Shown here piece by piece: positions 8,427 through 38,026 of a DNA stretch of 64,000 bases. Each line of letters begins with the position of its first letter. The first letter of the stretch is position 1. Below the pieces are notes generated by a model that was given only the letters and a program-made list of their open reading frames with translations, made no database searches and had not been told where the DNA came from. The DNA is from Segatella copri (GTDB taxonomy: Bacteria > Bacteroidota > Bacteroidia > Bacteroidales > Bacteroidaceae), in NCBI RefSeq assembly GCF_019249655.2, contig NZ_CP137557.1, forward strand, positions 244,001-308,000, given 5' to 3'. The position numbers and the translations under genes were made by a program.

Positions 8427-8707
8427 CTGAAGTTTCGCAAGTAGCATTCTACCGTCCCCGAAGGGGGCGAATGTGAATAACCGCAGGTGGAATGCCCGAA
8501 GGGAATGGAACCTGCGGATAGTTACAGATACTCTCTTATCGTCCCCGAAGGGGGCGAACAGGAGCAAGGCTGGATGTGGTTCGCCCCCTTTGGGGACGCT
8601 TTCTCCCTACTATTGGTTGTCCGCAGGTTCCATGACCTTTGGTCATTCCACCAGCGGTTATTGAAAGTTGGCCCCCTTCGGGGACCGGAGGTTACTTGCG
8701 AAACTTG
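8427..8707 (+). mobile_element. Foldback MITE-like element, copy 1 (between trpC and trpF)
   Basis: A 281-bp element with terminal inverted repeats CTGAAGTTTCGCAAGTA / TACTTGCGAAACTTG, flanked by a perfect 10-bp direct repeat AATAGAATAA (8417-8426 and 8708-8717), the signature of a transposition target duplication. The interior is a nearly full-length imperfect palindrome with nested hairpins built on CGTCCCCGAAGGGGGCGAA. No convincing coding sequence, so it is non-autonomous. Here it sits inside the trp operon. Confidence 0.85.
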
Positions 8708-8732
8708 AATAGAATAATAGATAACAATAATA

Positions 8733-9452
8733 ATGGTAATAAAGGTTTGTGGCATGCGCGATGCCCAGAATATTCGCGAAGTGAGCCAGTTGGGCGTTGA
8801 TATGATAGGAATGATCTTCTATCCAAAATCGCCTCGCTACGTGGAGATGCAGAGCAGTCACGCTGGCATCATTCCTGATTATGCAAAAGAGGATATTGGA
8901 GCTTCTGATTCTTCAAAAGATTCTTCTTCAAATTCTTCAGAATCTGTCTCTACATCTTCAAAATCTCCAGCCCGAGTAGGCGTATTTGTAGATGATATGG
9001 TTCAGAACATCGTGACACGAGTGGTGAATTATCATTTGGATTACGTCCAACTGCATGGCAATGAACCACGGGAGATGTGCGAGAATTTGAGATTAACTCT
9101 CGATCCCGATATCCGACCAGGCATCAAGATCATCAAGGCAATCAGTGTATCTGATGCCTCAGACATTCAAAAATATAAGGAGTATGTAGGCGCTGTTGAC
9201 CTCTTCCTTTTCGACACCAAATGCAAGACGGTGGGTGGAAGTGGCCAGCAGTTTGATTGGCAGGTTCTGGAGCAATACGATGGCGAAATCCCATTCCTCT
9301 TGAGTGGCGGCATCGGACCGGAAGATGCATCCCGCCTCCATGCCTTCCATCATCCCAAATACATCGGCATCGACCTCAACTCCCGTTTCGAGATAGAGCC
9401 GGGAGTGAAGGATGTAGAGAAGCTCAAGGGGTTCTTGAATGCGATGCAATAA
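8733..9452 (+). CDS. trpF: Phosphoribosylanthranilate isomerase
   Basis: A 239-residue TIM-barrel enzyme for the third step of tryptophan synthesis. VIKVCGMRD at the N-terminus holds the catalytic Cys, GMIFYPKSPR follows, and FLLSGGIGPEDA with GIDLNSRFE (catalytic Asp) is near the C-terminus. Residues ~50-80 are a Ser-rich low-complexity insert (KDSSSNSSESVSTSSKS) absent from ordinary TrpF, so the protein is longer than the usual ~200-210 residues. It starts 25 bp after foldback copy 1. Confidence 0.95.
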   Translation: MVIKVCGMRDAQNIREVSQLGVDMIGMIFYPKSPRYVEMQSSHAGIIPDYAKEDIGASDSSKDSSSNSSESVSTSSKSPARVGVFVDDMVQNIVTRVVNYHLDYVQLHGNEPREMCENLRLTLDPDIRPGIKIIKAISVSDASDIQKYKEYVGAVDLFLFDTKCKTVGGSGQQFDWQVLEQYDGEIPFLLSGGIGPEDASRLHAFHHPKYIGIDLNSRFEIEPGVKDVEKLKGFLNAMQ

Positions 9453-9535
9453 AGAGAGATACAATAAAGAGAAATACAATAAAGAGAAATACAATAAAGA
9501 GAGATACAATAAAGAGAGATTTCAATAAAGATTTT
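9451..9535. repeat. Tandem 15-bp repeats between trpF and trpA
   Basis: About five units of AATAAAGAGA(G/A)ATAC in a row, beginning at the trpF stop codon. Purine-rich with no stable hairpin. They look like slippage-prone spacer DNA inside the operon. Confidence 0.85.
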
Positions 9536-9585
9536 GGGTTAAGCCCCATTTCTAAACACAAAACGATTTTAAAATACAACACAGG

Positions 9586-10362
9586 ATGAACAAGATAAAT
9601 GCATTATTTGCAAACAACAAAGACCGCAAGCTTTTGAGCTTGTATTTCTGCGCCGGATGCCCAACCTTAGAAGGCACCGGCGATGTAATCAAGGCGATGG
9701 AACGCAAGGGCATCGATATGATAGAAGTAGGTATCCCCTTCAGCGACCCTTTGGCAGATGGACCCGTTATCCAGAGTGCAGGTACCAAGGCTCTGAAAAA
9801 CGGCATGACCGTCAAAACCCTCTTTGGTCAGCTCAAGGCCATCAAAGATGAAGTCAATATCCCTCTCGTTCTCATGGGCTATCTCAACCCCATCATGCAC
9901 TATGGCATCGAGGAGTTCTTCAAGAGCTGTGTAGAGAGCGGAGTGAGCGGAACCATCATTCCCGACCTTCCTTTCGATGATTATCTCAAGGTAGTTAAGC
10001 CTATCGCCGATAAGTACGATATCCGCGTCATCATGATGATTACTCCTGAAACCAGCGAGGAGCGCATCCGCTTCATCGATGAGCATACCGATGGCTTCAT
10101 CTATATGGTCAGCTCCGCCAGCATCACGGGTGCTCAGAGCAGTTTCGGCGATGCCAAGCTCGCTTACTTCAACCATATCAACAGCATGAACCTCCGCAAC
10201 CCACGCATGATTGGCTTCGGCATCAGCAACAAGCAGACCCTTACCAGTGCACAGGATAACGCCGCCGGTGCCATCATCGGCAGTAAGTTTGTGACATTGC
10301 TCAATGAAACCATGAATCCAGACAAGGCTTTGGATAGGCTTTTTGAGTGCCTCAAAAAGTAG
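9586..10362 (+). CDS. trpA: Tryptophan synthase alpha chain
   Basis: A 258-residue TIM barrel that cleaves indole glycerol phosphate and channels indole to TrpB. Catalytic Glu47 (MIEVGIPFSDP) and Asp58 (PLADGPVIQ) are in place, matching Glu49/Asp60 of E. coli. LMGYLNPIMHYG, PDLPFDD and GFGIS (phosphate loop) are also present. It lies before trpB, with a 518-bp repeat-filled gap between them rather than the usual tight coupling. Confidence 0.97.
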   Translation: MNKINALFANNKDRKLLSLYFCAGCPTLEGTGDVIKAMERKGIDMIEVGIPFSDPLADGPVIQSAGTKALKNGMTVKTLFGQLKAIKDEVNIPLVLMGYLNPIMHYGIEEFFKSCVESGVSGTIIPDLPFDDYLKVVKPIADKYDIRVIMMITPETSEERIRFIDEHTDGFIYMVSSASITGAQSSFGDAKLAYFNHINSMNLRNPRMIGFGISNKQTLTSAQDNAAGAIIGSKFVTLLNETMNPDKALDRLFECLKK

Positions 10363-10527
10363 TTAATAGTTAATAATAGTTAATAGCTAATAGTTGACAG
10401 TTGATAGTTAATAGTTGATTGTTAATAGTTGATAGTTAATAGCGGCTTCGGCGTATAGCAGGCTTGCCCTATAAACTGTAAACTGTAAACTGTAAACTAT
10501 AAATTATAAACTGTAAACTATAAATTA
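10363..10527. repeat. Degenerate short tandem repeats after trpA
   Basis: Two simple-repeat tracts: TTAATAGT/TGATAGT-type units (10363-10442) and TAAACTG/TATAAAC-type units (10471-10527). The second type continues after the foldback element (10810-10875) and the first recurs near 12083-12110. This is A/T-rich spacer; no gene is visible. Confidence 0.8.
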
Positions 10528-10809
10528 CTGAAGTTTCGCAAGTAGCATTCTACCGTCCCCGAAGGGGGCGAATGTGAATAACCGCGGGTGGAATGCCCGA
10601 AGGGAATGGAACCTGCGGATAGTCACAGATACTCTCTTATCGTCCCCGAAGGGGGCGAACAGGAGCAAGATTGGATGTGGTTCGCCCCCTTTGGGGACGC
10701 TTTCTCCCTACTATTAGTTTGTCCGCAGGTTCCATGACCTTCGGTCATTCCACCAGCGGTTATTGAAAGTTGGCCCCCTTCGGGGACCGGAGGTTACTTG
10801 CGAAACTTG
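10528..10809 (+). mobile_element. Foldback MITE-like element, copy 2 (between trpA and trpB)
   Basis: A 282-bp element, same orientation as copy 1 and differing from it at only a handful of positions. Ends are CTGAAGTTTCGCAAGTA and TACTTGCGAAACTTG. The flanks TATAAATTA (10519-10527) and AATAAATTA (10810-10818) match at 8 of 9 positions, consistent with a target duplication inside an A/T-rich repeat tract. It sits within the trp operon, upstream of trpB. Confidence 0.85.
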
Positions 10810-10880
10810 AATAAATTATAAACTGTAAACTGCAAACTATAAATCATAAACTATAAACTGTAAATTATAAACTAAGTATT

Positions 10881-12080
10881 ATGTATCAAGTTGACGATAA
10901 AGGATTTTTTGGAAAATTCGGAGGAGCTTACGTTCCTGAAATATTATATAAGTGTGTAACAGAACTCCAGCAGGCTTACAAGCCTATCATTGAGAGCGAG
11001 GAGTTCAAAAATGAGTACTATGCCCTTTTGAAAGATTACGTGGGCCGTCCTTCACCTCTCTATTATGCCAAGCGCATGAGCGAGAAGTATGGCTGCCAGC
11101 TCTATCTGAAGCGTGAGGACCTGAACCATACCGGTGCACACAAAATCAATAACACCATCGGACAGATTCTGATGGCGAAGAAGATGGGAAAGACCCGTAT
11201 CATCGCCGAAACGGGTGCCGGACAGCATGGCGTTGCCACTGCCACCGTCTGTGCCCTGATGGATATGAAGTGCGAAATCTTCATGGGTGCCACCGATGTG
11301 GAGCGCCAGCATACCAACGTAGAACGTATGAAGATGTTGGGCGCCAAGGTGAACCCGGTTCGCACAGGCAATATGACTCTGAGCGATGCCTGCTCTGAGG
11401 CCATCCGCGACTGGTGCTGTCACCCACAGGATACCTTCTATATCGTAGGTTCCACCATGGGTCCGCATCCTTACCCTGATATCGTGGCAAAGATGCAGAG
11501 CGTCATCAGCGAGGAACTGAAATGGCAGTTGGAGGAGAAAATCGGTCGCGATTATCCTGATTATCTCATCGCCTGCGTGGGTGGCGGAAGCAATGCCGCA
11601 GGTACCATCTATCATTACATCGACGACGACCGTGTTCAGATTTATCTCGCTGAGGCTGCCGGTCATGGCATAGACACCAACTATACCGCTGCCACCATGC
11701 ATTGCGGAACAGAGGGAATCATCCACGGCGCCCGCACCCTGGTGATGCAGACTGAAGATGGTCAGATAGAAGAAGCCTTCACCATCAGTGCCGGTTTGGA
11801 TTACCCGGGCATTGGACCAATGCACGCCGATTTGGCAACAAGAGGCAGAAGTCATGTGCTTGCCATCAAGGACGATGAGGCCATCTATGCCGGTTATGAG
11901 TTGACCCGCATGGAAGGCATCATCCCAGCCATCGAGAGTGCCCATGCCGTAGCCGCCTTGAAGAAGATGAAGTTCAAGAAGGATGATGTGGTTGTCCTTA
12001 CTGTTTCAGGCCGTGGCGACAAGGATGTGGAGACGTATTTGAGCCATAAGGAAATGGCAGGAGAATACGGCAACTTTTAA
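10881..12080 (+). CDS. trpB: Tryptophan synthase beta chain
   Basis: A 399-residue PLP enzyme that condenses indole with serine. The PLP lysine is Lys88 in REDLNHTGAHKINN, the phosphate-binding GGGSNAAG and the C-terminal SGRGDKD loop are intact, and GRPSPLYYA opens the catalytic domain. This is the TrpB1 type paired with TrpA. It follows trpA after foldback copy 2, and is followed by trpE. Confidence 0.97.
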   Translation: MYQVDDKGFFGKFGGAYVPEILYKCVTELQQAYKPIIESEEFKNEYYALLKDYVGRPSPLYYAKRMSEKYGCQLYLKREDLNHTGAHKINNTIGQILMAKKMGKTRIIAETGAGQHGVATATVCALMDMKCEIFMGATDVERQHTNVERMKMLGAKVNPVRTGNMTLSDACSEAIRDWCCHPQDTFYIVGSTMGPHPYPDIVAKMQSVISEELKWQLEEKIGRDYPDYLIACVGGGSNAAGTIYHYIDDDRVQIYLAEAAGHGIDTNYTAATMHCGTEGIIHGARTLVMQTEDGQIEEAFTISAGLDYPGIGPMHADLATRGRSHVLAIKDDEAIYAGYELTRMEGIIPAIESAHAVAALKKMKFKKDDVVVLTVSGRGDKDVETYLSHKEMAGEYGNF

Positions 12081-12183
12081 ATAGTTAATAGTTAAAAGTT
12101 AATAGTTAATAGAGGCTGCGCCGTTGAGCAAGATTGTCAAAGCGGTTCATGCTATAAACTATAAATTATCAATTATAAACTAA

Positions 12184-13641
12184 ATGAAATATAGTTATCA
12201 TACAGTAACCCGCAAGATTCTTGCCGACCTTTATACGCCGGTGGGAGTCTATATGCGATTGAGAGATATTTATCCCCAGTCGGCTCTGATGGAGAGTTCC
12301 GACTATCATGGTTCCGAGAACTCCCGGTCCTTCATCGGCGTTCATCCGCTGGCAAGCATCGCCGTGAGCCATGGCGAGGTCATCAAGACCTATCCTGATG
12401 GCAGCGTGGAGAAGGAAACGCTGCCTACTTTCGGCGAGGGCAAGGGCGAACAGTGCAAGCTCGCCATCTCCAAGGCCATCAACGATTTCATCCAGAGCTT
12501 CCACGTAGAAGGAGAGGGCAAGGATTTCTGCGGACTCTATGGCTTCACCACCTTCAACGCCGTGAGATATTTCGAGAATATCCCCGTAAAGGATACCACC
12601 ATGGCGAAGAATGATGCACCGGATATCTATTATATTATGTATAAGGACATCATCGTGTTCGATCACTTCAATAATACAATGGAGCTGATTGCGCTTCAAG
12701 AGAGTGAAGAACGAAGAGTGAAGAGTGAAGAATCTCACTCTTCACTTCCTGAGCTCGATGCCCTGCTCAAGGCCGTGAACAAGGCGAATGTGAAGCCTTA
12801 TGATTTCCATCCGGTGGGCGATACCTTTTCTACCCTTACCGACGAGGAGCACAAGGCAAACATCCGCAAGTGCATCCAGCACTGTCTGCGGGGCGATGTC
12901 TTCCAGATTGTTGTCAGCCGCCGCTTCATCCAGAAATACGAGGGCGATGACTTCAAGCTCTATCGTGCCCTGCGCAGCATCAACCCATCGCCATATCTCT
13001 TCTATTTCGATTTCGGCGGATTCCGCATCTTCGGCTCTTCTCCTGAAACCCACAACCGCATCGTGGGCGACAAGGCATTTATTGACCCGATAGCAGGAAC
13101 CACCCGTCGCACAGGCGATATGGAGCAGGATAGAAAGGCTGCCGAGTTCCTCCGCAACGACCCGAAGGAGAATGCCGAGCACGTGATGCTGGTAGATTTG
13201 GCGCGCAACGACTTGAGCCGCAACTGCCATGGTGTGAAGGTAGATTTCTATAAGGATATGCAGTTTTATAGCCACGTCATCCACTTGGTGAGCCGTGTGA
13301 GCGGAACCCTCGATAAGGATGCCGACCACATCAAGGAGTTCATTGATACCTTCCCAGCCGGTACCCTGAGCGGTGCGCCCAAGGTGAGGGCGATGCAGAT
13401 TATCTCCGAACTGGAACCTCATAATCGTGGAGCCTACGGCGGTTGCATCGGATTTATCGGCTTGAATGGCGATTTGAACCAGGCGATTGTAATCCGAACC
13501 TTCATCAGCCGCAATGGCGAACTCTGGTTCCAGGCAGGAAGTGGAGTCGTGGCGAAGAGCAACGACCAGTATGAGTTGGAAGAGTGCAATAACAAGTTGG
13601 GCGCCCTCACCAAGGCGATTCATATTGCAGAAGAACTTTAA
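12184..13641 (+). CDS. trpE: Anthranilate synthase component I
   Basis: A 485-residue chorismate-using enzyme. The catalytic half shows GTTRRTGDMEQDRKAA, DLARNDLSRNC and PAGTLSGAPKVRAM, and ends with FQAGSGVVAKS. Near the N-terminus, SALMESSD stands where the Trp-feedback LLES motif is expected. A GA-rich insert at about 12699-12747 codes the charged EERRVKSEE stretch between the N-terminal and catalytic parts, in frame and probably tolerated. It needs TrpG downstream for glutamine use. Confidence 0.96.
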   Translation: MKYSYHTVTRKILADLYTPVGVYMRLRDIYPQSALMESSDYHGSENSRSFIGVHPLASIAVSHGEVIKTYPDGSVEKETLPTFGEGKGEQCKLAISKAINDFIQSFHVEGEGKDFCGLYGFTTFNAVRYFENIPVKDTTMAKNDAPDIYYIMYKDIIVFDHFNNTMELIALQESEERRVKSEESHSSLPELDALLKAVNKANVKPYDFHPVGDTFSTLTDEEHKANIRKCIQHCLRGDVFQIVVSRRFIQKYEGDDFKLYRALRSINPSPYLFYFDFGGFRIFGSSPETHNRIVGDKAFIDPIAGTTRRTGDMEQDRKAAEFLRNDPKENAEHVMLVDLARNDLSRNCHGVKVDFYKDMQFYSHVIHLVSRVSGTLDKDADHIKEFIDTFPAGTLSGAPKVRAMQIISELEPHNRGAYGGCIGFIGLNGDLNQAIVIRTFISRNGELWFQAGSGVVAKSNDQYELEECNNKLGALTKAIHIAEEL

Positions 13642-13680
13642 GAAAGTGAAGAGTGAAGAACGAAGAGTGAAGAATTCATG
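13642..13680. repeat. GA-rich 35-bp repeat after trpE
   Basis: AAAGTGAAGAGTGAAGAACG and the following bases closely match a segment inside the DUF4837 gene (46711-46748, opposite strand) and part of the insert in trpE (12699-12747). It is a dispersed low-complexity repeat in the trpE-trpG spacer. Confidence 0.75.
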
Positions 13681-13733
13681 TGCTTCAAGTAATCATTAAG
13701 TACGAAACATTAAATATTAAACATTATCAAAAC

Positions 13734-14297
13734 GTGAAAGTAGTAATCATAGATAATTACGATTCCTTCACCTACAATCTGGCACATTTGGTGAAGGAAT
13801 TGGGCGTGGACGTTACGGTGTATCGCAACGACCAGTTTCAGCTCCGTGAGTTGGAGCCATTTGATAAGATCATATTGAGTCCGGGTCCGGGAATCCCATC
13901 CGAGGCGGGGTTGTTGATGGATGTCATCAGGAAGTATGCAGGCATCAAGCCGATGCTGGGCGTATGTCTGGGTCATCAGGCGATAGGCGAGGCGTTTGGT
14001 GCCAAGCTCACCAACCTCAAGGAGGTGTATCATGGTGTAGCCACCCCATGCACCCAGTTTGGCATCGACCCGATATTCCAGGGCATGGAGAAGCGAATCG
14101 AGATAGGAAGATACCATTCGTGGGTAGTAGATAGAACGAATTTCCCTGAGTGCTTGGATGTCACCGCCGTGAGCGATGACGGTTGCATCATGGGTTTGAA
14201 GCACAAGAACTACGATATCCATGGCATCCAGTTCCATCCCGAAAGCGTGTTGACGCCGGAAGGCAAGACCATCGTCAGGAACTTCCTGGAGTTGTAA
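13734..14297 (+). CDS. trpG: Anthranilate synthase component II (glutamine amidotransferase)
   Basis: A 187-residue class I amidotransferase that feeds ammonia to TrpE. The nucleophile is in MLGVCLGHQAIGE and the His-Glu pair in QFHPESVLTP. I place the start at the GTG (13734), giving VKVVIIDNYDSFTYNL as the first residues, which matches family length; the upstream ATG at 13680 would add an unrelated extension. It is the last trp gene, 92 bp after trpE. Confidence 0.95.
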   Translation: MKVVIIDNYDSFTYNLAHLVKELGVDVTVYRNDQFQLRELEPFDKIILSPGPGIPSEAGLLMDVIRKYAGIKPMLGVCLGHQAIGEAFGAKLTNLKEVYHGVATPCTQFGIDPIFQGMEKRIEIGRYHSWVVDRTNFPECLDVTAVSDDGCIMGLKHKNYDIHGIQFHPESVLTPEGKTIVRNFLEL

Positions 14298-14312
14298 AGA
14301 GGATAGGAGATA

Positions 14313-14358
14313 TAAAAAAATCCCAGGCGATTCACCATCACCTGGGATTTTTTATATT
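14313..14358. terminator. Bidirectional terminator between trpG and the ROK kinase
   Basis: AAATCCCAGG and CCTGGGATTT form a stem with an A-run before and a T-run after. It can serve trpG on the plus strand and the kinase gene on the minus strand. Confidence 0.9.
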
Positions 14359-14397
14359 TTTATCTGATTGTCAGATTATCAGATTATCAGATGGGAA

Positions 14398-15375
14398 TTA
14401 CAAGTCCCAACCCACGGCACTGGCGCCGAGAACGGCAGCAGAACTGCCATCAAGAGTTGATACCAGGAACTTAGCCTTGCCCTTGTAAATCTTCAATACA
14501 TTCTCATCGTATGCCTTCTTCAAAGGCTCCATCAGCAAGTCACCAGCCTTGGTCAAACCGCCGAAGAATACGAATGCCTCTGGTGCAGAGAAAGCAGCAA
14601 AGTTGGCGCAAGCCTCACCCAGCATCTTACCTGTGAAGTCGTAGATGCGCTTAGCCAAAGCATCGCCCTTGCCGGCAGCCACACTCACGTCGTAAGAAGT
14701 GATATCCTCTGGCTTCATCTCGCGGAGCAAAGAAGGCTCGTCGCTTGTCTCCAGGAACTCGCGTGCTGTGCGAGCCACACCCGTAGCAGAGCAGTAAGTC
14801 TCCAGACAACCTCTTCTGCCGCAACCGCATACGCGGCCAGCCTCGCCAGGAACCACGATTACGTGACCCAACTCACCAGCGAAACCATCGCTACCGTAAA
14901 CCATCTGACCGTTGATAACGATACCAGAACCTACACCAGTACCCAAAGTAATGTCGATAAAGTTCTTCATACCACGAGCCACACCGTAAGTCATCTCGCC
15001 CAAGGCAGCCGCATTCGCATCGTTAGTCAAAGCCACAGGAATACCCAAAGCCTTGCTGAAGAGATCAGCCAATGGCACTACGCCATCGTGAGCCCAAGGA
15101 AGGTTAGGAGCGAACTCGATGGTACCTGTATAGTAGTTACCGTTAGGAGCACCGATACCCATACCCTTGATCTTCTCGATGCCGCCGATGGTATCAAGCA
15201 CAGGCTGCAAAGCCTCTACAGAAGCTTTTACATATTCATCCACTGTCTTGTAGCCACCAGTCTTGATGGCTGTTGTAGCCTTAATGTCACCGCGTGCATC
15301 TACGATGCCGAACACTGAATTAGTACCGCCAAGGTCCAAGCCAATTACGTATGGCTTCATTGCATTTTCTGTCAT
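14398..15375 (-). CDS. ROK-family glucokinase / sugar kinase
   Basis: A 325-residue ROK protein. GLDLGGTNSVFGIVD near the N-terminus is the ATP-binding loop, NDANAAALGE and GTGVGSGIV carry the sugar and ATP motifs, ELGHVIVVPG leads to the zinc motif with CGCGRRGCLE, typical of bacterial ROK glucokinases. It phosphorylates glucose or a related hexose. A start at MKPYVIG (15360) is also possible. It is convergent with the trp operon and shares its terminator. Confidence 0.92.
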   Translation of the reverse strand: MTENAMKPYVIGLDLGGTNSVFGIVDARGDIKATTAIKTGGYKTVDEYVKASVEALQPVLDTIGGIEKIKGMGIGAPNGNYYTGTIEFAPNLPWAHDGVVPLADLFSKALGIPVALTNDANAAALGEMTYGVARGMKNFIDITLGTGVGSGIVINGQMVYGSDGFAGELGHVIVVPGEAGRVCGCGRRGCLETYCSATGVARTAREFLETSDEPSLLREMKPEDITSYDVSVAAGKGDALAKRIYDFTGKMLGEACANFAAFSAPEAFVFFGGLTKAGDLLMEPLKKAYDENVLKIYKGKAKFLVSTLDGSSAAVLGASAVGWDL

Positions 15376-15414
15376 GTCTTTATTTTAAATTAGTTAGAAT
15401 TGTTTTTAATTATT

Positions 15415-15716
15415 CATGCTTCACACGTAACCTCCGGTCCCCCAATATCAGCAACCTCCGGTCCCCGAAGGGGGCCAACTTTCAATAACCGCTGGTGGAA
15501 TGACCGAAGGTCATGGAACCTGCGGACAACCAATAGTAGGGAAGAATCGTCCCCAAAGGGGGCGAACCACATCCAGTCTTGCTCCTGTTCGCCCCCTTCG
15601 GGGACGTTTGGAGAGAGTCCTTGTTATCCGCAGGTTCCATTCCCTTCGGTCATTCCACCCGCGGTTATTGACATTCGCCCCCTTCGGGGACGGTGGGATG
15701 CTACTTGCGAAAGCTT
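15415..15716 (-). mobile_element. Foldback MITE-like element, copy 3 (decayed)
   Basis: Same family as copies 1-2, in the opposite orientation. The left end is degenerate (CATGCTTCACACGTAACC) and followed by a duplicated ACCTCCGGTCCCC, a ~23-bp insertion. The right end is CTACTTGCGAAAGCTT. Both flanks read TTTTTAATTAT, which may be the target duplication. The rest of 15376-15970 holds only the promoter below; no gene is visible. Confidence 0.75.
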
Positions 15717-15899
15717 TTTAATTATAATTCTCTGCAAAGATAAGAAATAGTTTTGGAATAGTTGCTATTTCTTGTATAAAAAAGTATAATTTCTTCTTTT
15801 TTTTTAACTGAAATCAAATAAATCAGACTTCTTCCGAAAAAAAGAGGGTCTAAAATGAAAGTTTAACCCAAAAAATTACTAGATGTGCCCGATTTTTTG

Positions 15900-15907
15900 T
15901 AACTTTG
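15900..15907 (+). promoter_or_regulatory. -7 box of the LysE-type exporter gene
   Basis: TAACTTTG, a perfect TAnnTTTG, about 63 bp before the start codon. No clear TTTG -33 box was seen. Confidence 0.6.
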
Positions 15908-15970
15908 CCCGCTGTTATTAGATTTTGTATTTTTAGCCGGTTGGGATACTGGCAAAATGGAATAGAGAAA

Positions 15971-17258: not shown

Positions 17259-17342
17259 TGATTAGTTTTTAGTGATTACTTTTCAGTGATTAATTTTTTA
17301 GTATATACATTATTATAATATATATATAACGATATATAACAG

Positions 17343-18929
17343 ATGAAAGAGATTGAAAGAAGAAGAACATTTGCCATCATTTCGCACCCTGATGCCGGTA
17401 AGACAACTTTGACCGAGAAGTTCCTGCTCTTCGGTGGACAGATTCAGGTGGCTGGTGCCGTTAAAAATAATAAGATTCGTAAAACTGCTACTTCCGACTG
17501 GATGGATATCGAGAAACAGCGTGGTATCTCGGTTTCTACATCCGTGATGGAGTTCGATTACCTGCCAGATGGACAGACCGGAGAACCATACAAGGTGAAT
17601 ATCCTCGATACTCCAGGTCACCAGGACTTCTGCGAGGATACCTACCGTACCCTCACCGCCGTGGATTCTGCCATCATCGTGGTGGATTCTGCCAAGGGTG
17701 TGGAGGCACAGACCCGCAAACTGATGGAGGTGTGCCGCATGCGCAATACTCCGGTTATCATCTTCATCAACAAGATGGACCGTGAGGGACGTGACCCATT
17801 CGATGTACTCGATGAGTTGGAAGAAGAATTGAAGATTTCCGTTCGCCCATTGTCTTGGCCTATCGGTCAGGGCGCCCGATTCAAGGGTGTTTACAATATC
17901 TACGAGCACCAGCTCAACCTTTTCACACCTAACAAGCAGCGTGTCACAGAGAAGGTAGAGGTGGATATCCAGTCAAAGGAACTCGATGAGCGAGTAGGCG
18001 AGCGTGAGGCAAGCCAGTTGCGCGAGGAACTGGAACTGGTTGATGGCGTTTACCCTGAGTTTGATGTAGAAACCTATCGCTCAGCCGAAGTAGCCCCAGT
18101 GTTCTTCGGATCAGCGTTGAACAACTTCGGTGTGCAGGAGCTTCTGGATTGCTTCGTGCAGATTGCCCCATCTCCAAAGCCAACCCAGGCAGAGGAGCGC
18201 CTGGTGGAACCTGAGGAGCCTAAGTTCACTGGTTTCATCTTCAAGATTACCGCCAATATCGACCCTAACCACCGTTCCTGCATCGCCTTCTGCAAGATCT
18301 GCTCTGGTAAGTTTGTGCGCAATCAGCCTTACTACCACGTGCGACTCGACAAGACCGTGCGCTTCTCTTCGCCAACCCAGTTTATGGCGCAGCGCAAGAG
18401 CACCATCGACGAGGCCTATCCAGGTGACATCGTAGGTCTGCCAGATAACGGCATCTTCAAGATTGGCGATACCCTTACCGAGGGCGAGAAGATTCACTTC
18501 CGTGGATTGCCATCGTTCTCACCACTTCTCTTCAAGTACATCGAGAACGATGACCCAATGAAGAGCAAGCAGTTCCAGAAGGGATTGGAGCAGCTCATGA
18601 ACGAGGGTGTGGCTCAGTTGTTCGTCAACCAGTTCAACGGTCGCCGCATCGTGGGTACCGTGGGCCAGCTTCAGTTCGAGGTTATCCAGTATCGCCTGGA
18701 GAACGAGTACAACGCCAAGTGCCGCTGGGAGCCTGTTCACCTGCACAAGGCATGCTGGATTGAGGCCGATGACGAGAAGGAGCTGGAGAACTTCAAGAAG
18801 CGCAAGTACCAGTATATGGCCAAGGATATCGAGGGCCGCGATGTGTTCCTCGCCGATTCAGGCTACGTGTTGAGCATGGCTCAGCAGGATTTTGAGCACA
18901 TCAAGTTCCACTTTACATCAGAATTCTAA
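17343..18929 (+). CDS. prfC: Peptide chain release factor 3
   Basis: A 528-residue translational GTPase that recycles RF1/RF2 from the ribosome. G1 [13 protein letters not shown]3 DTPGHQDF and G4 NKMDRE are present and correctly spaced, and the RF3-specific [14 protein letters not shown] and [10 protein letters not shown] follow. Length is normal for RF3. It leads a tight operon with the ClC channel (9-bp gap), fmt and the Sua5-type gene. Confidence 0.97.
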
Positions 18930-18938
18930 AATTTCAGC

Positions 18939-20750
18939 ATGGTAATGGATGAAGAGTTAACAGGATACAAACAAAGCAGGACGGCGAAGCTGGTTGCCTG
19001 GCAGAAGAAACACATCTCTGACAAGCAGATGACCCTGATTCTCGCCTTCCTCATCGGTCTGCTCGCTTCGGTGGCAGGCTTCTTCTTGCATGCCATCGTA
19101 CACGAGATACAGTATCTGCTCACTTCGGGATTCGAGAAGGGTACCTATAATCTGCTCTTCCTGCTGTTCCCTATCGTGGGCATCTACCTCACGTCGCTGT
19201 TCATCAAGTATGTGGTGCGCGACAATATCTCGCATGGTATCACAAGAGTACTTTATGCCATCTCCACCAAGAACTCCCGACTCAAGGGGCACAACTGCTG
19301 GTCGTCAGTGGTGGCATCAGGCATCACCATCGGTTTCGGTGGTTCCGTGGGAGCCGAGGCACCTATCGTGCTCACCGGTTCAGCCATCGGTTCCAACCTG
19401 GGACAGATTTTCCGCATGGATAAGAAGACCATGATGCTGCTGGTGGGATGTGGAGCCAGTGCCGCCATTGCAGGCGTGTTCAAGGCGCCGATAGCCGGAC
19501 TGGTGTTCACCCTTGAAGTGCTGATGGTAGATCTGAGCATGGCATCGCTCTTGCCTATCTTGATTTCGTGTGTCACAGCCACCTGTTTCACCTATATATT
19601 CGATGGCGACAGTTCGCTGTTCGAATTCACGCTCACCAACCCATGGGAGCTGGACCGCACCCCGGCGTGCATTCTGCTGGGTGTTTTCTGCGGACTGGTG
19701 AGTCTGTATTTCATGCGCACCATGTCCATCTGCGAGGGCTTTTTCGGCAAACTGGGTCAGTATCCATACGCCAAACTGCTGTTTGGAGGACTCATCCTCA
19801 GCACGCTCATCTTCTTCTTCCCTTCGCTTTATGGCGAGGGATATTCTGCCGTCAATATCCTGCTCAAGGGCAGCAACGAGGCAGAGTGGGGGCAGGTGAT
19901 GAACCGTTCGCTGTTTTCGGGTCAGGATAATCTGCTCATTTTCTACATAGCGTTTGTCACCTTTACCAAGGTATTCGCCACCTCGGCAACCAATGGTAGT
20001 GGCGGTTGCGGTGGAACCTTTGCGCCTTCGCTGTTTATCGGCGGTTTTGCAGGCTTCCTTTTTGCCCGCCTGTGGAATATCTATCAGGTAGGCGTTCATG
20101 TGCCGGAGCAGAATTTTGCGCTCATGGGCATGGCGGGCTTGATTACGGGCGTGATGCATGCCCCGCTTACGGGCATCTTCCTCATCGCCGAACTCACGGG
20201 TGGCTATCAGCTCTTCATGCCGCTGATGATTGTGTGCATCTCTTCGTTGCTCACCATCAGCATTTTTGAGAGCCACAGCATCTACGCCCTGCGTCTGGCC
20301 AGAGAGGGCAAGTTGCTCACCCACCATGTAGATCGTTCGGCACTTACGCTGATGAGCATGCAGAGCATGGTTGAGAAGGATTACCATCCTATCAGTCCCG
20401 ATCTGCCGATGAGCAAGCTGGTGAGCGAGATTTCAAGAAGTAACAACAACTTTGTTCCGGTGTTGGATGATGCCGGTGTGCTGAAGGGCGTGATAGATAT
20501 CACCCGTCTGCGCCACATCATCTTCCGCACGGAACTGTATAATCACTTCACGGTGAGCCAGCTGATGATTCAGCCGTCGGCAACCCTGGGCGAGAACGAA
20601 CGCATGGACGAAGTGATGGATAAGTTTGATAAAACCGATGCCGCACAGCTGCCAGTGGTAGATGTCAACGGCGTGCTGAAGGGCTATATCAGCCGCACCA
20701 AGATTTACGAGGTATATCGCAAGATAGTGGCGGATATGTCGGCAGAATAA
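18939..20750 (+). CDS. ClC-family chloride channel/antiporter with CBS domains
   Basis: A 603-residue integral membrane protein. The ClC core shows GFGGSVGAEAPIVLTG (gating Glu within the AEAP variant of GREGP), ~10 hydrophobic helices and GGCGGTFAPSLFIGG (GxFxP anion site). Residues ~450-600 form a pair of CBS domains facing the cytoplasm, which often bind adenine nucleotides. It starts ATG GTA ATG, so translation might also begin at the second ATG. Second gene of the prfC operon. Confidence 0.94.
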   Translation: MVMDEELTGYKQSRTAKLVAWQKKHISDKQMTLILAFLIGLLASVAGFFLHAIVHEIQYLLTSGFEKGTYNLLFLLFPIVGIYLTSLFIKYVVRDNISHGITRVLYAISTKNSRLKGHNCWSSVVASGITIGFGGSVGAEAPIVLTGSAIGSNLGQIFRMDKKTMMLLVGCGASAAIAGVFKAPIAGLVFTLEVLMVDLSMASLLPILISCVTATCFTYIFDGDSSLFEFTLTNPWELDRTPACILLGVFCGLVSLYFMRTMSICEGFFGKLGQYPYAKLLFGGLILSTLIFFFPSLYGEGYSAVNILLKGSNEAEWGQVMNRSLFSGQDNLLIFYIAFVTFTKVFATSATNGSGGCGGTFAPSLFIGGFAGFLFARLWNIYQVGVHVPEQNFALMGMAGLITGVMHAPLTGIFLIAELTGGYQLFMPLMIVCISSLLTISIFESHSIYALRLAREGKLLTHHVDRSALTLMSMQSMVEKDYHPISPDLPMSKLVSEISRSNNNFVPVLDDAGVLKGVIDITRLRHIIFRTELYNHFTVSQLMIQPSATLGENERMDEVMDKFDKTDAAQLPVVDVNGVLKGYISRTKIYEVYRKIVADMSAE

Positions 20751-20762
20751 AATTTTGAAAAA

Positions 20763-21839
20763 ATGGAGAAGAAAGATTTAAGAATTATATTCATGGGAAC
20801 CCCGGAGTTTGCGGTGGAATCCCTCAAGCGCCTGGTAGAGGGCGGATATAACGTGGTGGCTGTGGTTACCCAGCCCGATAAGCCTGTGGGCAGACATCAG
20901 GACACGCTGCAGCCATCTCAGGTAAAGCAGTATGCACTTTCGCAGGGCCTGCCAGTGTTGCAGCCGGTGAAGATGAAAGACCCAGAGTTTGTGGAGCAGT
21001 TGCGCAGCTATCAGGCCGATTTGCAGGTAGTAGTAGCCTTCCGCATGCTGCCGGAGGTGGTATGGGCGATGCCTAAGTATGGCACCTTCAATGTGCATGC
21101 CGCCCTGCTTCCACAGTATCGTGGTGCAGCCCCAATCAACTGGGCTGTGATCAACGGCGAGAAGGAGACGGGTGTCACCACCTTCTTCCTCGACCACGAC
21201 ATCGATACCGGTCGCATCATCATGCAGAAGCAATTCCCTATTCCGGAAGAAGCCAATGTGGAGTATGTATATGATGGTCTGATGCATCTGGGTGCCGAAC
21301 TGGCACTGGAAACCATCGATGCCCTGATAGCAGCCGACGGCAACATTGCATCCATTGCCCAGGAAGAACTGATGGGCGAGGGCGTGGAGCTGAAATCAGC
21401 CCCAAAGATTTTCAAGGACACCTGTCGCATTGATTTCCACAAGCCAGCCAAGCAGGTTCACGATTTCGTGCGTGGTCTTTCGCCATATCCTGGAGCCTGG
21501 ACGGAGATCAAGAAGAAGGCACCGGTGGTTGTCTTTGAGGATACGGATGGCGAGATGCCAGAGGCTACGTCTCATCCTGCGCAGAAGAAGAGTGTGGAGA
21601 AGGTTCAGGTGTTGAAGATTTTCAAGACCCAGCAGTCTGAAGAACCTCGTGGCGCAGCACCAGTAGGTTCTTTGAGAATCTTCGAGAAGAAGTTGCAGGT
21701 AGCGTGTCTTGATAATTGGCTCAACATCCAGGAGCTGCAGCTTTCGGGCAAGAAGCGCATGGATGCCGCCGCCTTCCTCAACGGCATGAAGGACATCGCC
21801 TATTACGAGTGCCAGAAGAGCCAGGAAGATAATTTTTAA
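20763..21839 (+). CDS. fmt: Methionyl-tRNA formyltransferase
   Basis: A 358-residue enzyme that formylates initiator Met-tRNA. Catalytic Asn/His/Asp are in FNVHAALLPQYRGAAPIN and DHDIDTG, and IIFMGTPEFAVE opens the fold. The C-terminal RNA-binding domain carries a charged insert of ~30 residues (about 255-290, ATSHPAQKKSVEKVQ) making it longer than the usual ~315. Third gene in the prfC operon. Confidence 0.96.
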   Translation: MEKKDLRIIFMGTPEFAVESLKRLVEGGYNVVAVVTQPDKPVGRHQDTLQPSQVKQYALSQGLPVLQPVKMKDPEFVEQLRSYQADLQVVVAFRMLPEVVWAMPKYGTFNVHAALLPQYRGAAPINWAVINGEKETGVTTFFLDHDIDTGRIIMQKQFPIPEEANVEYVYDGLMHLGAELALETIDALIAADGNIASIAQEELMGEGVELKSAPKIFKDTCRIDFHKPAKQVHDFVRGLSPYPGAWTEIKKKAPVVVFEDTDGEMPEATSHPAQKKSVEKVQVLKIFKTQQSEEPRGAAPVGSLRIFEKKLQVACLDNWLNIQELQLSGKKRMDAAAFLNGMKDIAYYECQKSQEDNF

Positions 21840-21859
21840 TTCATAGTAATCATAGTAAT

Positions 21860-22432
21860 ATGACCAGAGAAGAAGATATTAAGAATGCAGTGGAATGCAT
21901 GCGAAAGGGTGGAGTGATTCTCTATCCTACAGATACCGTATGGGGCATCGGCTGTGATGCCACCAATCCGGAGGCTGTGAAGAAGGTGTACGAGATTAAG
22001 AAGCGTGATGATTCCAAGGCGCTGATTTGTCTCATTGATTCAGCCGACCGCATGGCGCGTTATTTCCGCAACGTGCCTCAGGTGGCGTGGGATTTCATTG
22101 ATGCAGCGATGCCGGTGAAGCCTACCACCATCATCCTGGATGATGCCAATGGCGTGGCTCATAACCTGGTAGCCGAGGATGGCAGCTTGGCGATGCGAGT
22201 AACTTACGAGGAGTTCAGCAAGCAGCTCTGCTACCGTTTCCAGAAGCCTATCGTGAGCACGAGTGCCAATGTTAGTGGCGAGCCGGCAGCCCAGAACTAC
22301 CGTGACATTTCCGATGAGATTCTGAATGCCGTGGATTATGTATGCTGGACCCGTCGCCAGGAGCACAAGCCTCACCAGCCATCCAGCATCGTAAAGATTG
22401 CGAAGAATGGTGAAGTGAAAGTAATTAGATAA
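21860..22432 (+). CDS. Sua5/YrdC-type L-threonylcarbamoyladenylate synthase
   Basis: A 190-residue YrdC-domain protein making threonylcarbamoyl-AMP for tRNA t6A37. KGGVILYPTDTVWGIGCDAT and KRDDSKALI are the signature substrate-binding segments, followed by KPTTIIL and STSANVSGEP. It lacks the extra C-terminal Sua5 domain, so it is the short form. Last gene of the prfC operon, closed by a hairpin at 22485. Confidence 0.93.
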   Translation: MTREEDIKNAVECMRKGGVILYPTDTVWGIGCDATNPEAVKKVYEIKKRDDSKALICLIDSADRMARYFRNVPQVAWDFIDAAMPVKPTTIILDDANGVAHNLVAEDGSLAMRVTYEEFSKQLCYRFQKPIVSTSANVSGEPAAQNYRDISDEILNAVDYVCWTRRQEHKPHQPSSIVKIAKNGEVKVIR

Positions 22433-22484
22433 GGTTCCGCCTAGCGAAATGCAATCGCCTAGCGGGGTTCGTTTTCTATATATA

Positions 22485-22538
22485 AAAAAGAGGTGCATCG
22501 CAAGAAGTCTTTCTCTTGCAATGCACCTTAATTTTTTA
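22485..22538. terminator. Terminator hairpin of the prfC operon (repeat copy A)
   Basis: AGGTGCATCGCAAGA at 22491 pairs with TCTTGCAATGCACCT ending at 22528, followed by a T-run. The whole segment recurs almost unchanged at 23635-23690. Confidence 0.9.
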
Positions 22539-22644
22539 CCTTTAGGTGTCTTGCCGAGGTATGAACTTTTGCAGGATGCCTAGCCGAGAAATGTAAACGA
22601 AGATTAAATAAGAGAAATCACTTGGTAGTTTCAAAGAAAAAGCG

Positions 22645-22652
22645 TAATTTTG
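22645..22652 (+). promoter_or_regulatory. -7 box upstream of foldback copy 4 and the 50-residue ORF
   Basis: TAATTTTG in the context TTGGTAGTTTC...GCGTAATTTTGCA, which resembles the trp and 58205 promoters. Only 16 bp separate it from the foldback element, so the transcript would start with the element as its leader. Confidence 0.6.
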
Positions 22653-22668
22653 CAATATTATATAAATT

Positions 22669-22949
22669 CAAGTTTCGCAAGTAACCTCCGGTCCCCGAAG
22701 GGGGCCAACTTTCAATAACCGCTGGTGGAATGACCAAAGGTCATGGAACCTGCGGACAACCAATAGTAGGGAGAAAGCGTCCCCAAAGGGGGCGAACCAC
22801 ATCCAGTCTTGCTCCTGTTCGCCCCCTTCGGGGACGATAAGAGAGTATCTGTAACTATCCGCAGGTTCCATTCCCTTCGGGCATTCCACCCGCGGTTATT
22901 CACATTCGCCCCCTTCGGGGACGGTAGAATGCTACTTGCGAAACTTCAG
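22669..22949 (-). mobile_element. Foldback MITE-like element, copy 4
   Basis: A 281-bp intact copy, reverse of copies 1-2: begins CAAGTTTCGCAAGTAACC and ends GCTACTTGCGAAACTTCAG. Flanks share TATAAA but no clean duplication. It occupies the presumed 5' leader between a promoter (22645) and the small ORF at 22980. Confidence 0.85.
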
Positions 22950-22979
22950 TATAAACAATTAAAAAATAGGAGGTATAAC

Positions 22980-23132
22980 ATGATGCTAGGAATGAATGCA
23001 CCAAAGGCTGTGGCCAAAGGTGAATACGCAAAAGCCATCCGTAAAGCCGTACATGACTCAATCGAAGCTATCAAGAACGGAAAGGTTCCTGAGAAAAAAA
23101 ATCAAAAGTTCAATTTTGAATGGAGGGTATAG
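22980..23132 (+). CDS. Small protein, 50 residues, just after foldback copy 4
   Basis: ATG ATG at 22980/22983, TAG at 23130-23132. Sequence starts MMLGMNAPKAVAKGEYAKA and is basic, ending FNFEWRV. It has an AGGAGGT ribosome-binding site 7 bp before the first ATG, rare in this phylum. It resembles no family that I know with certainty; it could be a gene in its own right or the N-terminal remnant of the nuclease/transposase-like gene that follows. Confidence 0.55.
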   Translation: MMLGMNAPKAVAKGEYAKAIRKAVHDSIEAIKNGKVPEKKNQKFNFEWRV

Positions 23133-23257
23133 ATATTTGTCACCGTACTAGCATTACACAAAGATAGTTATAGTGCCGTTCCCTTTTATGAAAAATGTAA
23201 TTTTGCCAAGCAAACCCCATTACCGAAAGCTGATGTATGGCCAATGTATAAAACTTT

Positions 23258-23617
23258 GTGGGTAGAATAGTATTGAAGTATATGGAAGTATTAGAAAGAT
23301 TGCCTTTTACGGCACAGAAGAAGATATTCGATCATCTTGCAAAATTGGCAGATGTTCGTTGCCTGAGTAGTGAGGAGCAGGAAAAATACGATGAAAGTAT
23401 TAAGGCTGTTGACGATTACTACTCCGGTCTTTATGGCTCGTATATTGAAGGAGAGGAAAAGGGAATTGCTAAAGGAATGGTTGAAGGTATAGCTAAAGGT
23501 GAACTGTCTAAAAGTTTGGCAATAGCCCGTAATTTATTAGCAATGGGGATGTCTTGGTCTCAAATCATGCAAGCAACAGGATTGACAGAAGAACAGTTGA
23601 AGCAGCTTCAGTCGTAG
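23258..23617 (+). pseudogene. C-terminal remnant of a Rpn-family (PD-(D/E)XK) nuclease/transposase
   Basis: The open frame has MEVLERLPFTAQKKIFDHL, LSSEEQEKYDESIKAVDDYY and a C-terminal run of EGxxKGxxxG repeats followed by a helix ending EEQLKQLQS. This matches the C-terminal third of the Rpn/PDDEXK_2 proteins (usually ~270-310 residues), while the nuclease domain is missing. The preceding 23133-23257 is A/T-rich with stops and no readable domain. I treat it as a decayed gene; a short functional protein is not excluded. Confidence 0.7.
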
Positions 23618-23634
23618 CTAGTTTTGCCTAATAT

Positions 23635-23690
23635 AAAAAGAGGTGCATCGCAAGAAGTCTTTCTCTTGCAATGCACCTCAATTTTTTTTA
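23635..23690. terminator. Bidirectional terminator hairpin (repeat copy B)
   Basis: Same hairpin as at 22485-22538, with one base difference after the stem and a longer T-run. It separates the nuclease remnant from the convergent amidase gene. Confidence 0.88.
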
Positions 23691-23709
23691 CCTATGATGA
23701 TACTATCTT

Positions 23710-24144
23710 CTACAGATGAAAATCTATTTCCTTGAGCCATGCCTTGGTATCAAAGCAAGGACACTCCTTCTTGACACCAGGCAAATCGCGGTGGCCCAGG
23801 ATGGTGGCATCAGGATAATCCTGAGCCAGAGAATACAGCAGCTCCTCCAGCGTAATCTTCTGCGCCTCGGTGCGCGTATCCGCAGGATGACCATTCTTAT
23901 CCAAGCCACCCTCGTAGCAGATACCTATGCTATGCTGGTTGTAGTGACGGGCATGCGCACCCACCTTGTCCTCATGACGGCCAGGATACAGGGTGCCGTC
24001 CTTGGTGATGTAATAGTGGTAACCAATCTCTGCGAAGCCACGAGCCTTGTGGCACGCCTCCAGATCCTCAATGCTGAAGTTCTGGTTCACACGGGTAGCG
24101 CTGCAGTGCACTACAATCAAATTGATAGTTCTTTTACATTTCAT
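23710..24144 (-). CDS. N-acetylmuramoyl-L-alanine amidase, T7-lysozyme type
   Basis: A 144-residue Amidase_2 protein. LIVVHCSATRVNQ gives the first zinc His, the fold continues with GYHYYITKDGTLYPGRHEDKVG and HSIGICYEGG, and GHRDLPGVKKECPCFD supplies the second His, the catalytic Lys and the Cys ligand. It cleaves the amide bond between MurNAc and the stem peptide. No signal peptide, as in phage endolysins. It is the end of the VirE-DUF4248-HU-smalltalk cassette. Confidence 0.93.
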   Translation of the reverse strand: MKCKRTINLIVVHCSATRVNQNFSIEDLEACHKARGFAEIGYHYYITKDGTLYPGRHEDKVGAHARHYNQHSIGICYEGGLDKNGHPADTRTEAQKITLEELLYSLAQDYPDATILGHRDLPGVKKECPCFDTKAWLKEIDFHL

Positions 24145-24233
24145 TTTCTTCTTCTTTTTTTAATGGTTCAACTTAGTGTTCTTTTTCTCTCAAGCCTTTC
24201 TTTCAAGGCTATTCTCAAGCCATCTCACCTCAT

Positions 24234-24332
24234 TTACAAGCCCTTGCAACTCTGTACACAGAAGGCGCTGAGGATGGCAGTCAATACCGTGATGGTGAAA
24301 TTAATCACTTTCTTAATAGTCTCTCTCTTCAT
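24234..24332 (-). CDS. Smalltalk protein, 32 residues
   Basis: ATG at 24330-24332, TAA at 24234-24236. The protein is basic at the start (MKRETIKKVINF), then hydrophobic (TITVLTAILSAFCVQS) with a short tail SCKGL. This matches what I know as the 'smalltalk' family, tiny predicted membrane or lipoprotein-like peptides found between HU-like and amidase genes in Bacteroidales. Too short for usual gene finders. Function unknown; a holin-like helper of the amidase is only a guess. Confidence 0.85.
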   Translation of the reverse strand: MKRETIKKVINFTITVLTAILSAFCVQSCKGL

Positions 24333-24383
24333 TTGTTCTCGCTTTTAATCGTTAGTTATCCCATATTAATTAGTTATCCCATA

Positions 24384-24944
24384 TTAGATTGTTACGTCTG
24401 TAGAATCACCGCCAGTGGTGCCTGAATTGCCGCCAGTGGTGCCAGTATTACCCTTGTCAGTGCCTCCTGAAGTGTTGTCACCCGTTGAGGAACCTCCCGA
24501 TGGATTGCTGCCTCCGCCGTTCGAACCGCCACCAGTAACAGTCACTCCCTTATCCACTCTCTTGATAGTGGCATCGAGGTTCAGACTGGCAGAAATCAAG
24601 TTACCCGTGGCGCGGGCTCTCGACTTCACTCCGGCAATGTTCTTGGCTGCCGACCACTCGGCAATGCTCTTGGCACCCATCTTGTTCTTGATGCCCAAGC
24701 TGAAGATCGCCAGGTCGTTGATCTTCACCGCAATGCCCTGCAAATTCAACTCTCTGATGCAGTTCACGGCATCGGTAAGCATACCCTTGATGGCACCTTT
24801 TGAGAAGGGGGTGTTGTGTGACGACATGTGCTCTGCCAACTTGTCGAGATCATAAGTCTCGTTAACCACTGGATATGCGTAGTACAAACCATACGCATTC
24901 GGCATCTTCTTGTTCTTGTTCTGTTTCAATACTACCTGAATCAT
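24384..24944 (-). CDS. HU-like DNA-binding protein with Gly/Ser/Thr-rich tail
   Basis: A 186-residue protein. Residues ~1-125 resemble the Bacteroidota HU/HIG family (LDKLAEHMSSHNTPFSKGAIKGML, VKINDLAIFSL). Residues ~130-186 are a low-complexity tail of Gly, Ser, Thr and Asn. It probably bends or coats DNA. In the cassette it lies between DUF4248 and smalltalk, here separated from DUF4248 by foldback copy 5. Confidence 0.85.
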   Translation of the reverse strand: MIQVVLKQNKNKKMPNAYGLYYAYPVVNETYDLDKLAEHMSSHNTPFSKGAIKGMLTDAVNCIRELNLQGIAVKINDLAIFSLGIKNKMGAKSIAEWSAAKNIAGVKSRARATGNLISASLNLDATIKRVDKGVTVTGGGSNGGGSNPSGGSSTGDNTSGGTDKGNTGTTGGNSGTTGGDSTDVTI

Positions 24945-24993
24945 ACTTTTTCCTTTCGCGTTAAAATTGTTAGTTAATTTAGTTTTAGTAACT

Positions 24994-25274
24994 CAAGTTT
25001 CGCAAGTAACCTCCGGTCCCCGAAGGGGGCCAACTTTCAATAACCGCTGGTGGAATGACCAAAGGTCATGGAACCTGCGGACAACCAATAGTAGGGAGAA
25101 AGCGTCCCCAAAGGGGGCGAACCACATCCAGCCTTGCTCCTGTTCGCCCCCTTCGGGGACGATAAGAGAGTATCTGTAACTATCCGCAGGTTCCATTCCC
25201 TTCGGTCATTCTACCCGCGGTTATTCACATTCGCCCCCTTCGGGGACGGTAGAATGCTACTTGCGAAACTTCAG
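24994..25274 (-). mobile_element. Foldback MITE-like element, copy 5, with perfect target duplication
   Basis: A 281-bp copy (CAAGTTTCGCAAG ... CTTGCGAAACTTCAG) flanked by a perfect 9-bp direct repeat TTAGTAACT (24985-24993 and 25275-25283). This is the cleanest proof of transposition in the family. It lies upstream of the HU-like gene, within the cassette. The rest of 24945-25409 shows no gene. Confidence 0.88.
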
Positions 25275-38024: not shown

Positions 38025-38026
38025 AA

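Follow-up and report, generated by a model that had tools for sequence, protein, structure and literature searches.

Foldback elements of a Segatella copri genome are probable MITEs with IS4-family ends around a REPIN-like palindromic core

Segatella copri is a common human gut bacterium. Within a 64,000-nucleotide stretch of one assembly (contig NZ_CP137557.1, positions 244,001 to 308,000; hereafter the window, with coordinates counted from its first letter) lie five copies of a foldback element, for which we examined the ends, the interior and the likely mode of movement. Our analysis makes it very probable that these copies are miniature inverted-repeat transposable elements (MITEs), in which ends of the kind found on an IS4-family insertion sequence (IS) surround a core resembling REPINs (paired, inverted repetitive extragenic palindromes, REPs), and that they are moved in trans by an IS4-family transposase. 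The copies have defined ends and flanking target duplications, the sites of three of them are empty in related genomes, and the genus contains a partner IS that matches them in its ends and in its kind of duplication. A mobile repeat family of an S. copri relative can now be named with its ends, target duplication and candidate transposase, inserted inside a biosynthetic cluster and in a likely 5' leader.

Five intergenic copies share a foldback structure

A first-pass annotation, made from the sequence alone, had reported five copies of a 281-base-pair (bp) foldback element. All five are present where it had placed them, and all are intergenic. Copies 1 (8427-8709) and 2 (10528-10811) lie on the forward strand, while copies 3 (15414-15714), 4 (22667-22949) and 5 (24992-25274) are inverted relative to them, on the reverse strand. 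The reported length did not hold. With ends set by comparison with 44 other end pairs, intact copies terminate in (CTG or YTC)AAGTTTCGCAAGT and measure 283 bp (copies 1, 4 and 5) or 284 bp (copy 2). Pairwise identity among these four is 97.2-99.3%, which fits the recent spread that had been proposed. Copy 3 does not fit it, being older: it is 93.1-94.6% identical to the other four, with 32-35 gap columns, and has about 20 additional bases near one end.

The word of the first hairpin (H1, GTCCCCGAAGGGGGC) has 20 matches in the window at up to two mismatches (0.08 expected), and the end word AAGTTTCGCAAGTA has 11 (0.40 expected). Folding was computed on copy 1, which folds back on itself over its whole length (RNA, -186.6 kcal/mol, z -16.8; DNA, z -14.6), in agreement with the earlier expectation of a very stable RNA. 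Open reading frames (ORFs) that touch the copies, such as that at 15400-15750, are mechanical only, and the element is non-coding.

Defined ends are flanked by short target duplications

Exact repeats directly adjoin the redefined ends of copies 1, 2, 4 and 5. They are TAGAATAA at copy 1 (8 bp; 8419-8426 and 8710-8717), TAAATTA at copy 2 (7 bp; 10521-10527 and 10812-10818), TATAAA at copy 4 (6 bp; 22661-22666 and 22950-22955), for which no repeat had been given before, and TTAGTAA at copy 5 (7 bp; 24985-24991 and 25275-25281). The target repeats claimed earlier for copies 1, 2 and 5 therefore exist, but at 8, 7 and 7 bp rather than 9-10 bp; the reported 10 and 9 bp were too long because bases of the element's own end had been counted in. 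The ends of copy 3 have drifted, and an 11-bp repeat, TTTTTAATTAT (15403-15413 and 15715-15725), surrounds it once the ends are shifted by 1-2 bases. The terminal inverted repeat of copy 1, CTGAAGTTTCGCAAGT (8427-8442, with its counterpart at 8694-8709), agrees with the ends of the IS4-family IS described below.

For a broader tabulation of flanking repeats, a check named in the first-pass annotation, we collected 48 end pairs of the form (CTG, YTC or near variants)AASTTTCGCAWGT from the window and from the three closest genomes (G001, S. copri strain Indica; G002, S. copri strain iA622; and G046, a single contig of 3.3 Mb). Copy 3, with ends that do not conform to this pattern, was left out; of the 48 pairs, three exceed 490 bp in length, and two of these three may not be elements. 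In 21 of the 48 pairs the flanks share an exact repeat of 7 bp or longer, no more than one base away from the defined ends, whereas 300 permutations of the right flanks among elements gave 0.17 such pairs on average and never more than 2. At the exact ends themselves, 20 pairs have such a repeat (14 of 7 bp, four of 8 bp and two of 9 bp). An earlier count with looser ends, on 47 pairs, was also above its null and is superseded by this one.

The 48 pairs were divided according to their interiors. Class A consists of four window copies, class B of 18 pairs with CGCCCTGAAAGGGC-type hairpins (213-283 bp, plus one of 777 bp) and class C of 23 pairs (161-173 bp) that have the same ends and none of the class A or B hairpin words; three pairs are unclassed. 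Repeats at the exact ends occur in 3/4, 8/18, 9/23 and 0/3 of these, respectively. A single set of transposon ends can enclose palindromic interiors of several unrelated kinds, and in G001, G002 and G046 the ends mostly surround interiors unlike those of the window copies. The ends are abundant in G046, where AASTTTCGCAWGT with up to one mismatch has 132 matches versus 19 for the reversed pattern. What looked like a 1.4-kb element in one locus (L227) was rejected, as it consists of two separate MITEs flanking a LysM-like gene (annotated by eye). Among viral contigs, the end patterns (9 stretches and at least 120 matches) gave five end pairs, each end two positions off, none of which resembled such an element. 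The exact end-plus-H1 pattern had no match in genome contigs or viral contigs, and copy 1 had none in phages and plasmids.

Sites of three copies are empty in the closest relatives

Judged by trpB DNA, the closest genomes are G002 (94% identity), G001 (87%) and G046 (87%). At the orthologous sites of copies 1, 2 and 3 the element is absent from all three; no orthologous site is available for copies 4 and 5. The clearest case is copy 3, where G046 and G001 read from GTTAGAATT to GCAAAGATA over one short AT tract, and the same place in the window has TTTTTAATTAT on either side of the insert. At the copy 1 site another hairpin element is present in G002 and G046, and the site of copy 2, an AT-rich tandem repeat, aligns poorly to relatives. 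No copy with the window interior was found in these three genomes, for which the best two candidates per genome were scored and the word of the third hairpin (H3) was scanned, so the spread seems confined to the lineage of the window.

In two relatives (L060 and L062), the trpC-trpF gap holds an apparent half class B element whose hairpins lack the mirror half, with a recognisable end in one and none in the other.

An IS4-family insertion sequence has the same ends

Across 398 genomes of the genus, the 16-mer CTGAASTTTCGCAWGT is found in 48, with 142 matches versus 6 for the reversed control (counted from the matches listed). The matches are often close to contig ends, as is usual for multi-copy elements. 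Two such 16-bp ends bound a 1,600-bp IS (L424) that has an exact 8-bp duplication, TTAGGTAA, and encodes one transposase of 479 amino acids. A second full copy (L436) has exact TAACATGA on both sides, and L433 is a third. Among the 30 loci listed for CTGAASTTTCGCAWGT, 17 agree with an end of L424 or L433 in at least 70% of the next 15-25 bases. The L424 transposase scores 374 bits against the NCBIfam model transpos_IS4_4 (cut-off 250) and exceeds the cut-offs of both Pfam DDE_5 and DDE_Tnp_1, and PF13546 describes it better than PF01609 among Pfam models; 1,597 of 5,861 candidates are its relatives at E ≤0.001. No solved structure matched this transposase or the Y1 transposase discussed below. 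The left end of the IS also persists in S. copri G001, at two places with fragments of 46-47 bp that are 93-96% identical. For an IS copy near a class C end, no usable empty site was obtained.

A transposase with the same terminal repeats, a partner envisaged in the first-pass annotation, is thus present in other genomes of the genus. Together with the empty sites of copies 1-3 in three relatives and the excess of flanking repeats over the null, it bears out the earlier interpretation of non-autonomous transposition, to which we add two features not seen at that stage: the ends are common to other interiors, and the hairpin module is a separate unit associated with Y1 genes.

The interior is a triple-hairpin module with a conserved fold

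The interior is not IS DNA and is built from two inverted copies of an H1-H2-H3 hairpin module. In copy 1, H1 lies at 8454-8468, H2 (CCGCAGGT...ACCTGCGG), which shows compensatory changes, at 8481-8517, and H3 (within CGTCCCCGAAGGGGGCGAAC) at 8541-8555, all on the forward strand; the mirror hairpins H3' and H1' lie at 8583-8597 and 8671-8685 on the reverse strand. From the window and five other genomes we extracted 48 units and aligned 42, leaving out six longer than 115 nucleotides (nt), among them a spurious unit from the window. This alignment contains three hairpins, with 96.9% of cells paired. Pairs altered on both sides number 11, compared with 6.1 in shuffles, and the covariation score is 0.287 versus 0.108. 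H2 is the fair, unbiased test, since H3 had been picked out with a pattern and H1 with a hairpin rule; five of its eight pairs have changes on both sides, and 93.8% of its cells are paired. Rfam gave no match above the gathering cut-off at the copies.

A genus-wide search with copy 1 found matches in 8 of the 398 genomes (best two candidates per genome), with mirrored hairpins in only some of them; that in G327 was set aside, as it lies inside an apparent coding gene and looks like chance. The H3 word CGTCCYCGAAGRGGGCGAAC occurs in 5 of the 398 genomes (reversed control, 0). By eye, G006 and G274, and others in part, have the same hairpin order with other ends. In G006, all eight class A palindromes examined have ends near GGTTCATCCGC and exact repeats of 7-9 bp, several of them GC-rich (GCCTCTTG, CATATCGG); two of the eight share one flank and may be one duplicated site. 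Palindromes with this core therefore make duplications in two species with two sets of ends, a result that supports the MITE reading and also demonstrates that the core is able to occur with more than one set of ends.

Modules of this type flank Y1 transposase genes

Hairpin modules also accompany genes for Y1 (HUH) transposases. In G001, G002 and G046, class B modules flank both sides of four of the six Y1 matches (L300, L301, L303 and L304). In seven further genomes, chosen for their matches to copy 1 (G327 left out), GAGG-type hairpin modules stand on both sides of 4/10 Y1 matches (L307, L308, L309 and L312). The order at L309 is H1-H2-H3, gene, H3'-H2'-H1', with class A words and compensated stems. 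The association holds for modules of this type, not for the exact window sequence. All nine Y1 ORFs that were read contain DH[IV]H and Y---Q--HH and are about 150 amino acids long. Three (L300, L301 and L315) have the motif WQ and the other six WE or WG, and the Y1 proteins of L310 and L311 are of the NP type. In the available portion of Quentin et al. 2018 (PMC6006769), Y1 subclass 1.2 is given the motif Y---Q--HH, with WQ also in the table, and on these motifs we provisionally label the genes subclass 1.2-like. There the subclass is said to be, in general, without typical terminal structures, and no REP is listed for it; here, 4/6 and 4/10 of the Y1 matches have hairpin modules on both sides, which makes the triple hairpin a candidate substrate for a group described as generally without one. 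We infer that a Y1 enzyme spread the core in the past.

One such gene, in G046 (L250/L301), lies with its modules between two AAGTTTCGCATGT ends 777 bp apart, with no flanking repeat. Rpn (PD-(D/E)XK) genes stand beside both Y1 copies at L250 and were considered as a possible mover. This candidate was rejected: elsewhere, inward-facing ends around the gene were found in none of 24 Rpn loci in two genomes, apart from a weak pair at L349 that has two mismatches at one end. A family end lies near seven of these 24 loci at up to one mismatch (L342, L345, L349, L351, L354, L356 and L359) and near nine at up to two.

Comparison with known mobile elements

Like bacterial MITEs, the window copies are short, non-coding and intergenic, have terminal inverted repeats in common with an IS and are flanked by target duplications. 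Unlike them, they have just about 16 bp per end in common with that IS, what they enclose is a conserved, unrelated hairpin palindrome, and one set of ends is found with three interiors. With IS4-family ISs (transpos_IS4_4) the family has in common the ends CTGAASTTTCGCAAGT and the kind of duplication, which is 8 bp in two of the three full IS copies, while the window copies themselves lack a transposase.

The inverted hairpin units beside Y1 genes, recurring within genomes, resemble the REPINs, the REPs with their associated tyrosine transposases (RAYTs) and the TIRtrons described by Di Nocera et al. 2013 (PMC3733652). The accessible text of that paper defines REPs by an unpaired GTAG or CGTC tag beside the stem, with a stem of 8-9 bp and a loop of 4-5 nt for the CGTC type, and nowhere contains the term 'duplicat'. 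Here no unpaired tag of either kind is present, each unit has three hairpins, and the outer ends are accompanied by duplications. The CGTC of H3 is paired within the stem and the loops are 3 nt, which places the element outside the GTAG and CGTC REP superfamilies as that text delimits them. The PINSR repeat of Prevotella intermedia/nigrescens (PMC4755523) is likewise a non-coding Prevotella repeat; it is set apart by its description, which in the part available states that it has no terminal inverted repeats.

How the elements may have moved

Since the ends and the kind of duplication of these elements recur on an IS, an IS4-family transposase is the likely mover of classes A, B and C, and judging from these sequence comparisons it is most likely also what moves the copies in the strain of the window. 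In the proposed mechanism, an IS4-family DDE transposase would recognise the 16-bp terminal inverted repeats (CTG or YTC)AASTTTCGCAWGT in trans and would cut and paste the copies into AT-rich intergenic DNA, duplicating 7-8 bp of target. The element would thus be a chimera, in which DDE-transposon ends enclose two inverted H1-H2-H3 modules of a kind that also flanks Y1 (HUH, IS200-like) genes elsewhere in the genus.

Several observations weigh against this proposal. The ISs L424 and L436 come from other genomes of the genus and not from that of the window, and blastn of the IS against the window gave no match. No full IS with these ends was found in G001, G002 or G046, where 30 of the 46 PF01609 matches were inspected as possible movers and rejected, none having paired ends, and where PF13546 was not searched. 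The IS and the MITEs have only about 16 bp in common, duplications are most often 7 bp long for the MITEs, as against 8 bp for the two ISs that have one, and the third full IS copy (L433) has no repeat. An exact repeat of at least 7 bp is lacking at 27 of the 48 end pairs, and that of copy 4 is just 6 bp. Palindromes with this kind of core move with other ends in G006, which means that what moves them there has to be a different enzyme or a related one. Between closely spaced ends in G001, G002 and G046, no transposase gene other than the Y1 gene of L250/L301 was seen, which could point to a Y1 mover; this gene is part of a larger block of 3,984 bp containing two Y1 and two Rpn genes, the flanks of which match by eye at 6/7 positions and scored 0 in a count of exact repeats. 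The Y1 genes, too, are known from other genomes of the genus rather than from that of the window. Finally, one of the five covariation measures, further pair types, was not above shuffling (17 versus 16.8).

Could a Y1 (HUH) transposase instead move the whole element as folded single-stranded DNA, as in REPINs, and leave the 7-8 bp duplication behind? Y1 genes do lie in the middle of palindromes built in the same way, in one case between two family ends, the element is a near-perfect foldback, and in G006 duplications of 7-9 bp accompany class A palindromes with other ends, following the core as well as the ends. We nevertheless consider this explanation unlikely, because a DDE IS exists with the same ends and exact 8-bp duplications, because class C has those ends and exact duplications in 9 of 23 pairs without any class A or B hairpin word, and because the Y1-bearing element has no repeat at its own ends. 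In addition, IS200/IS605 elements are described, in the accessible part of PMC2817692, as having no terminal inverted repeats and making no larger target duplications. A dual-mode element, for which a Y1/HUH enzyme (subclass 1.2-like) would copy the folded single-strand triple hairpins and an IS4-family DDE enzyme would move the bracketed palindrome as a duplex, is a tentative idea to which we give some weight. If it were true, Y1 enzymes described without a clear substrate would gain a hairpin partner, and two unrelated transposition systems would have built one element.

We give far less credence to a strict REP/REPIN family spread by a RAYT, with flanking repeats that arise by chance in AT-rich DNA. 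It would account for the nested hairpins, the intergenic placement, the inverted pairing and the Y1 genes of related genomes; against it stand the permuted flanks (mean 0.17 versus 21 observed), the repeats of at least 7 bp at 8/8 palindromes in G006, some of them GC-rich, and the ends held in common with an IS. We consider it equally improbable that selection maintains the copies at these sites as conserved RNA structures with a regulatory role (terminators, mRNA stabilisers or an RNA family). The very stable fold, the compensatory changes and the fact that copies lie within the trp gene cluster and in a probable 5' leader would agree with such a role, whereas copies occur in both orientations, the sites of copies 1-3 are without the element in three relatives, and no copy has an Rfam match above the gathering score. 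An effect on expression after insertion is a different matter and is possible: with so stable an RNA, insertion in the trp cluster and in the likely leader may alter expression.

Genomic surroundings of the copies

Two copies interrupt the trp cluster, which reads trpC, copy 1, trpF, trpA, copy 2, trpB. The place into which copy 2 inserted consists of AT-rich 14-bp tandem repeats (10359-10527 and 10810-10881). The trpF gene (8733-9452) has diverged much further from its counterparts in two S. copri strains (54 and 61% protein identity) than the nearby trpB (87 and 94% DNA identity). Copy 3 adjoins a ROK-family kinase gene. Copy 4 lies between a promoter-like sequence, which we take to be of the Bacteroidetes type, and a small ORF, presumably within a 5' leader, and copy 5 lies upstream of an HU-related gene whose score is below the curated cut-off of its family. 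Around copy 4 and a fragment of an Rpn-family gene, a 53-bp inverted-repeat sequence is present in two direct copies (22485-22537 and 23635-23687; 98% alike).

Copies 4 and 5 belong to a stretch of about 19 kb (22433-41486) that G046 and G001 lack; in those two genomes, two tRNA genes come within about 200 bases after tsaC. The stretch also holds SusC/SusD-like genes, a BT4734/VapE-like protein and an AbiEi-like gene. Decayed remnants bearing ends of the family type (CTCAAGTTTCGCATGT at 38090-38136 and TTCAAGTTTAGTAAGT at 28440-28486) and class B-like words were noted, as was a CACAAACTTGTGAACC-rich sequence repeated 3.3 kb apart (38021-38089 and 41336-41419) near the tRNA end of this island. 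Elsewhere in the window, positions 58245-58356 match the SAM-I/IV riboswitch with a score that exceeds the gathering cut-off of Rfam.

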